Shown here: piece by piece, positions 8,566-12,595 of the stretch | How positions within the stretch are numbered: position 1 is the stretch's first letter | Layout of the letters: each line of letters begins with the position of its first letter | Source of the DNA: Caulobacteraceae bacterium | GTDB taxonomy: Bacteria > Pseudomonadota > Alphaproteobacteria > Caulobacterales > Caulobacteraceae | Direction of reading: 5' to 3' | Length of the DNA: 64,000 bases | Assembly: GCA_019695035.1 (NCBI GenBank) | Contig: JAIBAU010000005.1 | Span: forward strand, 62,001 to 126,000 | Translations under genes and position numbers: made by a program | The notes under the pieces: model-generated | Database searches by the model: none | The model's input: the letters and a program-made list of their open reading frames with translations, nothing else | What the model was told of the DNA's origin: nothing

Positions 8566-8635
8566 GTCGCGCGCCGGTTAACCGCTCGGCGACGATTGGC
8601 GGCGTAGAATAACGTCGTTACGGGGGAACTTGAGC

Positions 8636-9889
8636 GTGCAAGCTGCGTCCGCAGGGCGCCGGCGACTTTCGCCGGGCGAGCTGGAAATGATCGTTACCGC
8701 GCACGAGCGTCTCGTCGCGGGCAAGCCCGGCGGCCGCCGGGCCATCATGAAGTTCGTCGACCTCAGCGGCTGCGACCTGTCCGGCCGGAACCTCGCCGAC
8801 GCCGATTTCACGGGATCCAACTTCGACGGCTGCCGCCTGGTGAAGACTCAGTTCGAGCGCGCCGTCCTGTTCGGTTGCGACCTGCGTCACGCCGACCTGC
8901 GCGCCGCCAACCTGCGTCGGGCCGACCTGCGCGGCGTCTGCCTGCGCGGCGCCAATCTCTCGCTGGCCGATCTGACTCAGTCGGACTTCCGCCGCGCCGC
9001 CATCGGCATCCCCCACCCGACCAAGGGCCTGAAGACCATGCGCCACGTGGATCGCGTGGGCGAGCTGGACGGCGTGAACTTCAGCGGCGCGACCCTGGAC
9101 GGCTCGCACATGGACGAGGCCTCGGCCTTCGCCGCCGACTTCTCGGACTGCTCGATGCGCGGCGCCAAGCTGACCGGCGCCAACCTCAAGGACGCCAACC
9201 TGTCCGGCGCCATGCTGGAGGGCGCGGACGTGGCCGGCTGCAATCTGGAAGGCGCCAAGCTGATCGGCGCCGTCCTCACCGGCGTCGACGTGGCCAGCGC
9301 GCGCCTGATGGGCACCGACCTGACCGGTTCGATCCGCAGCGTCGGGGCGGACGCGGCCGCCCAGGCCGAGACCCTGTTCGCCGGCGCCTGCGAGGCCCAG
9401 ACCTGGTGCGACACGGGTGGGGCCCAGGGGGCGCCCGCCATCTTCGACGGCCTCGATCTGCGCCCGCTCTGTGACCGCCTGAAAGGATTCCGGCTGCCGG
9501 CCCTGCGCGCCAGGGGCGCCTGCCTGGTCGGACTCGATCTCTCGGGCGCCCAACTGCAGGGCGCCAACTTCGAAGGCGCGGACCTGCGCGGAGCGAACCT
9601 GCGCGGCGCGGACCTGCGCGGCGCGCGTCTCGCCGGCGCCAACCTGACCAAGGCCGACCTTCGCGGCGCCCTGCTCAGCCCCCTGCCGCTCGGCGCCAAC
9701 CGCTCCGTCGCGGTGATCTGCGAAGGCGCCCGCCTGCGCTACGCCGACCTGTCGGGCTGCGACCTCTCGGGCGCCAGCCTCGACCAGGCGGACGTCGTGG
9801 GGACCAACTTCTCCGGCGCCCGGGTCGCCACCGCCAGCTTCCGCGGCGCCAACGTCGACGAGGCCGTGGGTTTCGACCTGGCGGCCTAG
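8636..9889 (+). CDS. Pentapeptide-repeat protein (second of tandem pair)
   Basis: About 417 residues with the same plan as the preceding gene: a short N-terminal segment (RLSPGELEMI...), a first pentapeptide block, a linker with WCDTGGAQGAP, and a second block rich in ADLRGA repeats. The start is set at GTG 8636 because the GGGGGAA at 8622-8628 is well spaced for it; a TTG at 8630 in the same frame would be too close to that site. The linker and N-terminal similarities show duplication of the whole gene, not just of repeats. Confidence 0.9.
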   Translation: MQAASAGRRRLSPGELEMIVTAHERLVAGKPGGRRAIMKFVDLSGCDLSGRNLADADFTGSNFDGCRLVKTQFERAVLFGCDLRHADLRAANLRRADLRGVCLRGANLSLADLTQSDFRRAAIGIPHPTKGLKTMRHVDRVGELDGVNFSGATLDGSHMDEASAFAADFSDCSMRGAKLTGANLKDANLSGAMLEGADVAGCNLEGAKLIGAVLTGVDVASARLMGTDLTGSIRSVGADAAAQAETLFAGACEAQTWCDTGGAQGAPAIFDGLDLRPLCDRLKGFRLPALRARGACLVGLDLSGAQLQGANFEGADLRGANLRGADLRGARLAGANLTKADLRGALLSPLPLGANRSVAVICEGARLRYADLSGCDLSGASLDQADVVGTNFSGARVATASFRGANVDEAVGFDLAA

Positions 9890-9897
9890 ACGACAGG

Positions 9898-9924
9898 AAA
9901 AAGGCGGCCCGTCGCCGGGCCGCC
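9898..9924 (-). terminator. Rho-independent terminator of the hsp20 gene
   Basis: A perfect nine-base-pair stem (9903-9911 with 9916-9924) closes a four-base loop and is followed, reading the minus strand, by five T residues (9902-9898). It lies 39 bases past the hsp20 stop codon. On the plus strand no T-run follows, so it mainly serves the minus-strand gene. Confidence 0.75.
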
Positions 9925-9962
9925 CTGTCAGTTCAGGAAGGAAACGAGGTTGGTCAAACCGC

Positions 9963-10439
9963 TCAGGCGGCCGACTTTCCCTTCTTCGGTTGGGCGTTGA
10001 TCAGGCCGTTGGCCTCGCCGCTCGCAATCTCGATGCGACGCGGCTTCATGGCTTCCGGCAGCTCGCGGTTCAGGTCGATCGTCAACAGCCCGTTCTCCAG
10101 GCTCGCATTGGTGACGATGACGTAGTCCGCCAGCTGGAAGCGGCGCTCGAAGTCGCGCTCGGCCAAGCCGCGGTGCAGGTAGCGGCGCTCGACCGTGTCG
10201 TCGTTGGCGGCCTTGCGGCCGGTCACGGTGAGCAGGTTCTGGTTCACCTCTAGGTTCAGCTCGTCGGACTTGAAGCCGGCCACGGCCAGTTCGATGCGCC
10301 AGGCGTCCTCGCCGGTCGACTCGATGTTGTAGGGCGGCCAGTTCGACGCGGATTCGCTCTTGGCCTGTTCCAGTTGCTGGGCCAGGCGGTCGAAGCCGAC
10401 GAGGGAACGATAGAGGGGGGTGAAATCGACGGTACGCAT
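9963..10439 (-). CDS. Hsp20 / IbpA-type small heat-shock protein
   Basis: A 158-residue alpha-crystallin-domain chaperone that holds unfolding proteins until ATP-dependent chaperones act. The N-terminus (VDFTPLYRSLVGFDRL) matches the class A IbpA type of Alphaproteobacteria. The crystallin domain spans about residues 35-130, with YNIE...WRIELAVAGF, RKAANDDT, the L-x-RGLAER-F strand and ENGLL-IDL. The start is the ATG at 10439 with a near-perfect AGGAGG upstream. That ribosome site lies inside a ROSE-like hairpin, so translation is probably heat-controlled. Confidence 0.95.
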   Translation of the reverse strand: MRTVDFTPLYRSLVGFDRLAQQLEQAKSESASNWPPYNIESTGEDAWRIELAVAGFKSDELNLEVNQNLLTVTGRKAANDDTVERRYLHRGLAERDFERRFQLADYVIVTNASLENGLLTIDLNRELPEAMKPRRIEIASGEANGLINAQPKKGKSAA

Positions 10440-10567
10440 GCACGAACCTCCTTCAGGAGCAAGGTTGCGACGTCCCGGCGCTTTGTCCCGGGACGTTGGG
10501 TTTGAACCGATGCGGCCCCAAGACGGGCGTCCGCTCCGATCCGGAGGCCCGGCGAACCAGCGCCTCC
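10440..10567 (-). promoter_or_regulatory. ROSE-type RNA thermometer in hsp20 5' leader
   Basis: Read on the minus strand, the leader can form three hairpins. The first is a five-base-pair stem (10546-10542 with 10538-10534). The second is a perfect eight-base-pair stem (10495-10488 with 10478-10471). The third, next to the start codon, sets TTGCTCC (10465-10459 region) against the AGGAGG Shine-Dalgarno (about 10452-10447). The UUGCU-opposite-Shine-Dalgarno arrangement is the hallmark of ROSE elements that control alphaproteobacterial small heat-shock genes. The 5' end is inferred from the promoter. Confidence 0.75.
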
Positions 10568-10573
10568 GTGGAA

Positions 10574-10605
10574 ATAGATGGGATGCGATCGGCGGCCCGC
10601 AAGGG
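10574..10605 (-). promoter_or_regulatory. Candidate sigma32 (RpoH) promoter for hsp20
   Basis: On the minus strand CCCTTG (10605-10600) is followed, after two bases plus fourteen, by TCCCATCTAT (10583-10574). This fits the heat-shock consensus CCCTTGAA-N13/14-CCCCAT closely in both boxes and spacing. Transcription would begin near 10567 and give a leader of about 128 bases carrying the thermometer. Confidence 0.6.
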
Positions 10606-10700
10606 GGGCGATGGAACAGGCCCGGACCGGGTGGCAAAAGCCTTGTCTGAAGACGGTTTCCGCCTAGTTTGGCGGACCTTGATCGTCGGGGAAGAGCCAG

Positions 10701-11573
10701 ATGAAACCCTATTCCGTCGCCCTCGCCGTGGTGGCCTTGCTGGCCCTGGCCGCACCCATGGCGTCCGCCACCGCCCTGTTCCCCAACGCCACCCGCGCGG
10801 GAGCGCCCAGCTTCGAGGAGGACACCCAGCTGGCCAACGCAGTCGGCTCCCCGCTGCGAAGCGAGGCGCACAAGGCCCGCGACGTCTGGCGCCACCCCTA
10901 TGAGTCGCTGACCTTCTGGGGCTTGGCCCCCGGCATGACCGTGATCGAGATCGCCCCGGGCGGCGAGGCCTGGTGGACCGAGATCCTGCTGCCCTACGCC
11001 CGCGCCACCGGCGGGCGCTACGTCGCCGCCTACAACGATCCGCGCGTGCCGAACTATTCCGATGCGGCCCGCAAGGGCCGCGCCGATTTCGACGCCCGGT
11101 TCGGGGTCGCCTCCGTCGACTTCGGGATGATTTCCGGCCTTGGCGCGGCGGACGGCTCGGCTGACCTGGTGCTGGTCGCCCGGGCCTTCCACAACTGGGC
11201 CCGCACCGAAGGCCAGACCGATCGTTACCTGGCCGAGTTCTTCCGCGTGCTGAAGCCCGGGGGTGTCCTCGCCGTCGAGCAGCACCGCGCCCCGGCGGAC
11301 TCGGACGTCGCGGTCACCGCGCCCAATGGCTACGTCCCCGAGAGCTACGTCATCGCCGCGGCCCAGAGGGCCGGCTTCGTGCTCGAAGCCCGCAGCGAGC
11401 TCAACGCCAACGCGGCCGACACCCGCAATCATCCCTTCGGCGTGTGGACCCTGCCGCCGGTGCGCCGCTCGGCGCCGCCCGACCAGCCCGCCAACCCGGA
11501 CTTCGACCACCGCCCCTATGACGCCATCGGGGAAAGCGACCGGATGACGCTAAGATTTCGGAAACCGGCTTAG
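10701..11573 (+). CDS. Exported COG4798-type predicted methyltransferase
   Basis: A 290-residue protein with a signal peptide (hydrophobic residues 5-24, AxA cleavage). The mature part has a class I SAM-methyltransferase-like core: GMTVIEIAPGGEAWWTEIL (motif I region, about residue 80), then DLVLVARAFHNW and FFRVLKPGGVLAVEQHR. It ends with HPFGVWTLPP and a terminal IGESDRMTL. The same features recur in the next gene, so they form a tandem duplication. Because SAM is cytoplasmic, an exported member is puzzling; the protein may have lost methyltransferase activity or use another ligand. Confidence 0.85.
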   Translation: MKPYSVALAVVALLALAAPMASATALFPNATRAGAPSFEEDTQLANAVGSPLRSEAHKARDVWRHPYESLTFWGLAPGMTVIEIAPGGEAWWTEILLPYARATGGRYVAAYNDPRVPNYSDAARKGRADFDARFGVASVDFGMISGLGAADGSADLVLVARAFHNWARTEGQTDRYLAEFFRVLKPGGVLAVEQHRAPADSDVAVTAPNGYVPESYVIAAAQRAGFVLEARSELNANAADTRNHPFGVWTLPPVRRSAPPDQPANPDFDHRPYDAIGESDRMTLRFRKPA

Positions 11574-11665: not shown

Positions 11666-12595
11666 ATGAGCGATCGATCGCCCTGGCTGTCCAGGCGAAC
11701 CCTGATGACCGGCGCCGGAGCCCTGGCGGCGAGCGGCGGCCTTGTCGCCTGCGGCAAGCCCAAGTCGGATCAGCACGCCGCGCCCGCGGTCGCCCCGCCA
11801 CCCTCGGACGGACCGCCCGAAGGCACCCTGGAATGGGCGGTCGCCGGTCCCTGGCGGGCCTCTGACCGCGTTCGGGATCGCTATCGACACCCGGCCCAGA
11901 CCCTCAAGTTCTTCGGGCTCGGCGAGGACCAGGCGGTGGTCGAGCTGTGGCCAGGCGCGGGCTACTACACCGAAATCGTGGCGCCGTTCCTGGCCCGGAA
12001 TCGCGGCCGCTACTACGCCGCCCAGTTCGCGGTCGATGACGACGCCGATCCCGCCATGGCCCAGACCGTGGCCCGCTTTCGCGAGCACTTCGGCAAGGAC
12101 CGCACCCTGTACGGCGACATTCGCTTCACCCAGTTTCCCCCGGCCGGGGATCGGGCGTCGGCTCCACCCAATGGCGCCGACCTGGTGATGATGATGAACA
12201 ACTTCCATACCTGGATGGGCGCTGGCCTGGCCGAGATCGCGCTGCGGGAGGCCTTTGCGGCCCTCAAACCGGGCGGCACGCTGGGGGTCGAGCAGCACCG
12301 CATGCCCATGAAGGCGCTCGAGGACATCCAGGATCCGGCCGCCACCAATGGCTACGTGCAGGAAGCCTATGTGAAGGAGATGGCCGCCGAGGCCGGATTC
12401 ATCTTCAAGGCCTCGTCCGAGATCAACGCCAATCCCCGCGACACGCACGAGCACCCGTTCGGCGTCTGGACCTTGCCGCCGACGCGCCTCTCGGCGCCCC
12501 GCGGCGAGTCCGAGAACCCAAATTTCGACCATGCCAAATACGATCTTATCGGAGAGAGTGATCGTATGACGCTGAAGTTCAGGAAACCGAGTTGA
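11666..12595 (+). CDS. Tat-exported lipoprotein, COG4798-type predicted methyltransferase (paralogue)
   Basis: A 309-residue paralogue of the preceding gene. The N-terminus carries a twin-arginine motif (SRRTLMTG) and a lipobox ending in LVAC, so it should be folded before export and lipid-anchored. The methyltransferase-like core (VELWPGAGYYTEIVAPFL, DLVMMMNNFHTW, ALKPGGTLGVEQHRMP) and the HPFGVWTLPPTR and IGESDRMTLKF tail are conserved. Tat export implies that the fold, perhaps with a bound ligand, forms in the cytoplasm. Its stop overlaps the TTG start of the next gene (TTGA). Confidence 0.85.
   Translation: MSDRSPWLSRRTLMTGAGALAASGGLVACGKPKSDQHAAPAVAPPPSDGPPEGTLEWAVAGPWRASDRVRDRYRHPAQTLKFFGLGEDQAVVELWPGAGYYTEIVAPFLARNRGRYYAAQFAVDDDADPAMAQTVARFREHFGKDRTLYGDIRFTQFPPAGDRASAPPNGADLVMMMNNFHTWMGAGLAEIALREAFAALKPGGTLGVEQHRMPMKALEDIQDPAATNGYVQEAYVKEMAAEAGFIFKASSEINANPRDTHEHPFGVWTLPPTRLSAPRGESENPNFDHAKYDLIGESDRMTLKFRKPS

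Follow-up and report, generated by a model that had tools for sequence, protein, structure and literature searches.

The window, a stretch of 64,000 nucleotides (nt) from a Caulobacteraceae genome, carries on its minus strand the gene hsp20, which encodes a small heat-shock protein of approximately 158 residues whose ATG start codon occupies positions 10439–10437 (Table 1). Orthologues in the Caulobacteraceae are 66–77% identical, and Hsp20 is present in 148 of 149 genomes of the family. A terminator-like hairpin behind the gene suggests that hsp20 forms a one-gene transcript. Convergent to it lies a pentapeptide-repeat gene (8630–9889, plus strand), and a simple motif scan of 104 Caulobacteraceae loci, some of them from duplicate genomes, found pentapeptide repeats just 3′ of hsp20 in 86, nearly all convergent; the pairing of the two genes looks conserved. 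On the other side, two adjacent plus-strand genes (10701–11573 and 11666–12595) encode similar proteins with the common motifs VEQHR, NPDFDH/NPNFDH and IGESDRMTL.FRKP; the former has a methyltransferase match, and the latter has no Pfam match. The same genome contains a second hsp20 (C42:30673–31047, minus strand; 44% identical), whose leader is not ROSE-like, with no UUGCU before the start codon and no Rfam ROSE match.

Table 1 Features of the hsp20 locus (positions in the window)
Feature	Positions	Strand	Basis
hsp20, small heat-shock protein, IbpA type	9963–10439	minus	Pfam PF00011 HSP20, E 2.4e-17; orthologues
Terminator-like hairpin after hsp20	9901–9926	minus	1 found versus 0.9 expected in shuffles; weak alone
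−35 element CCCTTG, sigma32-type promoter	10600–10605	minus	Sequence; CTTG conserved in orthologue leaders
−10 element TCCCAT (TCCCATCT), same sigma32-type promoter before hsp20	10578–10583	minus	Sequence; column consensus
5′ untranslated leader	10440–10571	minus	Start placed by promoter spacing; blind covariance model match 10575–10437
Hairpin I, 5′ end, bulged G	10542–10568	minus	6–7 base pairs, bulged G, 4 base pairs; covariation
Hairpin II, CGG/CCG and GCC/GGC type helix	10512–10534	minus	Covariation
Hairpin III, nine perfect pairs (10470–10478/10488–10496)	10470–10496	minus	Sequence, covariation
Hairpin IV, probable ROSE thermosensor, UUGCU and a bulged G facing AGGAGG	10445–10466	minus	RNAalifold on relatives, covariation
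Shine–Dalgarno AGGAGG, masked in hairpin IV	10447–10452	minus	Sequence

The leader of hsp20 is preceded by a sigma32-type promoter, in which a CTTG-type −35 element and a CCCA-type −10 element stand 16 nt apart, within the 13–17 nt spacing of such promoters, and are kept in orthologues. An earlier note on this DNA had described exactly these two hexamers at this spacing, and its coordinates are right. Of 46 non-redundant leaders anchored by script on hairpin I, 40 have CTTG 35–38 nt upstream of the hairpin; the anchor was misplaced in at least some of the remaining 6, where CTTG is nonetheless visible, so the count is at least 40. The −10 columns of the anchored leaders read t-C-C-C-A-n-n-T, with the central C in 40 of 40 and the A in 38 of 40, and this pattern, together with CTTG, agrees with the consensus of sigma32 promoters. 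The distance from promoter to hairpin I is fixed among relatives. It was this anchoring that settled the promoter question: a simple sigma32 consensus score over 300 nt was weakly discriminating, with some loci wrongly oriented, and a generic promoter scan found nothing because it is built for sigma70. In Caulobacter crescentus, accumulation of small heat-shock proteins is reported to be restricted to stresses in which sigma32 acts (PMC8119881), and the hsp20 promoter of the present species is probably used by RpoH. Promoter spacing points to a transcription start near 10571, just 5′ of hairpin I, which would place the entire conserved structure within the transcript.

With this expected start the leader is approximately 132 nt long and ends at the hsp20 start codon; the earlier estimate was about 128 nt. 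It folds into four hairpins, designated I to IV from the 5′ end, each backed by covariation in relatives, where three had been counted before, and the perfect stem of hairpin III is nine pairs long, not the eight (10471–10478/10488–10495) previously given. The pairing that had been proposed for the last hairpin holds: a UUGCU strand (10462–10458, minus strand) and the AGGAGG of the ribosome site are both present, and RNAalifold recovers their pairing in relatives. The distal part of hairpin IV lacks one pair in the present species, with C–A where relatives have G–C or U–A, and the window leader has a competing CUCC/GGAG hairpin, which likewise masks the Shine–Dalgarno sequence. We rejected a FourU thermometer, which has four consecutive U opposite AGGA; the strand here is CCUUGCUCC, without UUUU. 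We also rejected a protein-coding reading of the leader, which falls within a mechanically called open reading frame (9963–11510), given that length differences among relatives are not multiples of three and that the leader has compensatory pairs.

The single-sequence folding energy of the leader is weakly unusual (z −1.70 versus shuffles), so the comparative evidence decides whether the hairpins are real. We took 80 orthologous loci, mostly from Brevundimonas, Phenylobacterium and Caulobacter, from genome contigs. UUGCU lies shortly 5′ of the Shine–Dalgarno sequence in all 80, and one further relative (L083) has CUGCU. From 35 four-hairpin leaders in a plain MAFFT alignment, with the window left out, RNAalifold returned four hairpins, the last of them, unprompted, as CCUU-G-CUG against CAG-GAGG with the bulged G characteristic of ROSE; compensatory changes occurred at 17 of 30 pairs. 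The covariance model built from these leaders (model R1) scores the window leader at 67.3 bits (E 8.1e-15), compared with 10.1 bits for the runner-up in the window, and this constitutes independent confirmation, as the window was absent from model building. Across the whole of its own genome the next score was 22.5 bits, from a match near the second hsp20 that we attribute to chance: it lies on the opposite strand, without UUGCU and without an Rfam ROSE match. At E 0.01 or better with strict filters, model R1 matches in 104 of 149 Caulobacteraceae genomes, a lower bound because R1 favours leaders with four hairpins.

Over the 80 leaders aligned to the model, 97.6% of cells pair, compared with 84.6% in shuffles and 37–54% with slid partners; double changes number 279 cells, compared with 86 in shuffles, and compensation is seen at 20 of the 30 pairs. 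This alignment was fitted to the structure and is thus biased towards it; the RNAalifold result on the plain MAFFT alignment agrees. Hairpin I (helix 1) is paired in 99.4% of cells, with compensatory changes in 4 of 9 pairs and a bulged G that is invariant (80 of 80). Hairpin II (helices 2 and 3) is paired in 92.4% and 96.6% of cells, with compensatory changes in all 7 pairs, and hairpin III (helix 4) in 97.0%, with such changes in 6 of 7. Hairpin IV (helix 5) is paired in 99.1% of cells and has its bulged G in 79 of 80 leaders; the aligned UUGCU columns hold U, U, G, C and U in 79, 79, 79, 80 and 79 of 80, respectively, and the Shine–Dalgarno strand is near-invariant. Compensatory double changes relative to the commonest pair are also seen in the window leader, at two pairs of hairpin I and in hairpins II and III. 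The leader hairpins are thus confirmed as real, beyond chance.

Curated Rfam models recognize this clade weakly and do not admit it. Rfam 15 at gathering thresholds gave no match in the window, the ROSE model RF00435 gave none across the whole genome, and in neither the window nor the 18 relatives tested did any Rfam ROSE model attain its gathering score. When 501 bases were searched under permissive filters, ROSE (RF00435) ranked first of 4,227 Rfam families with 19.6 bits and E 1.4, short of the 45-bit cut-off. This match appears only with a short stretch and lax filters; it spans the full model length (1–94) and ends at the hsp20 start codon. Dividing this E value by the number of families gives, by our own arithmetic, approximately 3e-4 for a ROSE family named in advance. 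Scores in relatives were 34.0 and 31.3 bits for ROSE_3 (RF02523; cut-off 43) and 25.6 bits for ROSE_2 (cut-off 65). In the window's own genome RF02523 did not match the leader, and weak RF02523 matches over 21 genomes were dismissed as chance because all 14 control genomes also match at E up to 10. The Rfam search that the earlier note had proposed as a check thus yields sub-threshold matches only, as the curated models fit the Caulobacteraceae poorly, whereas the clade-specific model passes by a wide margin.

We conclude that the leader is very probably a ROSE-type RNA thermometer under a sigma32-type promoter; the promoter and hairpins are observed, and the opening of hairpin IV by heat is expected from homology. 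The same identification had been made before, and the Hsp20 gene, promoter, position, hairpin order, pairing of UUGCU to the Shine–Dalgarno sequence with a bulged G, covariation and conservation all fit it. Counting against it are the sub-threshold Rfam scores, the pair lost from the distal part of hairpin IV and the competing CUCC/GGAG hairpin. The leader is the 5′ untranslated region of a small heat-shock protein gene and abuts its start codon, a U(U/C)GCU strand pairs with the Shine–Dalgarno sequence in the last hairpin and leaves out a bulged G, and the four covarying hairpins fall within the two to four stem-loops of ROSE-type elements (PMC4166951). More than 40 such elements had been found before small heat-shock genes of alpha- and gammaproteobacteria by 2005 (PMC4166951), and C. 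crescentus is listed among the organisms with classical ROSE elements (PMC3669281); for Brevundimonas, our literature search found no paper on such an element.

At growth temperature, hairpin IV would hold AGGAGG in an imperfect helix with UUGCU, marked by the bulged G, a U–G pair and a short distal stem, and with the site masked little Hsp20 would be made even when mRNA is present. Upon heat shock, RpoH would boost transcription, and the imperfect helix of hairpin IV is predicted to open and let ribosomes enter; hairpins I–III would remain folded and may assist the correct folding of hairpin IV. Temperature sensing in ROSE elements relies on non-canonical, heat-labile pairs (PMC4166951). Computed for the ROSE register, the free energy of hairpin IV rises from −6.5 kcal/mol at 20 °C to −2.7 kcal/mol at 42 °C, a modest predicted stability, as expected of ROSE. 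In a ViennaRNA fold of the whole leader, using a nearest-neighbour model that omits the non-canonical ROSE pairs, the mean unpaired probability of the Shine–Dalgarno sequence barely changes with temperature, being 0.19 at 20 °C and 0.23 at 42 °C. The strong homology suggests that hsp20 is under dual control, of transcription and of translation.

In another reading, the leader masks the ribosome site but is opened mainly by a cue other than heat, for example by relief of self-repression, with Hsp20 binding its own leader, perhaps at hairpin I, and being titrated off by unfolded proteins. Escherichia coli IbpA is reported to repress its own translation via the 5′ untranslated region (PMC10474464), and a hairpin with an invariant bulged G at the transcript 5′ end would suit such a site. 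However, the features of hairpin IV are those of ROSE elements with a heat-opened helix, and the bulged-G layout of hairpin I equals that of the Rfam ROSE and ROSE_3 models, so no separate function is needed; self-repression would also act alongside a thermometer, not replace it. We therefore regard a mainly heat-independent switch as very improbable.

A slightly fainter prospect is that hairpin IV is not the main mask of the Shine–Dalgarno sequence and that GGAGGUU instead forms a long-range pair with GGCCUCC, the 3′ arm of hairpin I. In the present species the arms of hairpin I hold a Shine–Dalgarno-like GGAGG and an anti-Shine–Dalgarno CCUCC, which makes an alternative long-range fold with the real site possible, and this pair is the minimum-energy fold of a 141-nt stretch at 37 °C. 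Folding from the likely transcript 5′ end, by contrast, gives hairpin I at every temperature tried, and hairpin I of relatives compensates internally (GAGAGC/GCUCUC, GAAGGC/GCCUUC, GAGGAC/GUCCUC), which breaks the pairing to the Shine–Dalgarno sequence. Least credible is regulation by the promoter alone, with the hairpins a by-product of high G+C content and without effect on translation. The mildly greater stability of the single-sequence fold relative to shuffles would be in keeping with this, yet the strong covariation, the far lower slid and shuffled controls, the blind model match and the invariant UUGCU and bulged Gs argue against it; short of an alignment artefact, it is already refuted by the covariation. 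The thermometer reading leaves room for an addition, which we offer as a long shot: hairpin I may be a second sensing or binding site, for example for Hsp20 or an RNase, through which the leader integrates temperature and chaperone demand, with extra middle hairpins gained in the Caulobacteraceae to tune the response.

The 5′ end of the leader has a counterpart in the curated models. In the consensus structures of both RF00435 and RF02523, the first hairpin consists of six to eight pairs, a bulged G and then a short top rich in C and G, an arrangement that hairpin I shares (for example, GAGGGC-G-CCG...CGG-GCCCUC). Although cmscan aligned the first hairpin of RF00435 to hairpin II, the layout suggests that hairpin I is its better counterpart. 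One relative (L020) has a 62-nt leader in which the ROSE hairpin comes straight after hairpin I, and it is there that ROSE_3 reaches its best score (34.0 bits), because the leader consists of these two hairpins only. Leaders measure approximately 100–107 nt in Phenylobacterium and 120–133 nt in Brevundimonas and the window; orthologous hsp20 leaders thus come in short, middle and long forms of 62, approximately 105 and approximately 130 nt (relatives L003–L083). What is new is an architecture in which the ROSE_3-like bulged-G 5′ hairpin and the ROSE hairpin are separated by extra, inserted hairpins. The simplest reading would be one ancestral two-ended element to which one or two hairpins were added in the middle, and leaders with two, three or four hairpins before the same gene offer a natural series in which to probe the role of the upstream hairpins.

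Compared with known systems, the window leader shares with RF00435 its place before a small heat-shock gene, a 5′ hairpin with a bulged G, a long middle hairpin and a last hairpin that sets UUGCU and a bulged G against the Shine–Dalgarno sequence; it differs in having four hairpins where the model has three, and in falling short of the gathering score. With ROSE_3 it shares a first hairpin that carries a bulged G and is topped by CCG/CGG, and a last hairpin with a UUGCU-type strand, but all relatives tested stay below the gathering score of 43, and the two further hairpins between first and last in the window explain why that model does not align to it. The ROSE element of C. crescentus, from the same bacterial family, has three to four hairpins and is likened here by its description (PMC3669281). 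The short ROSE-like ibpA thermometers of Pseudomonas (PMC3669281) likewise place a ROSE-type Shine–Dalgarno hairpin behind a stable first hairpin, but have two hairpins only. Across the Caulobacteraceae the ROSE layout recurs widely ahead of hsp20, yet no Rfam ROSE model detects it at its cut-off, a gap that our alignments and model R1 could close; the window leader is a further case of a known type of element, in a clade whose elements Rfam misses.
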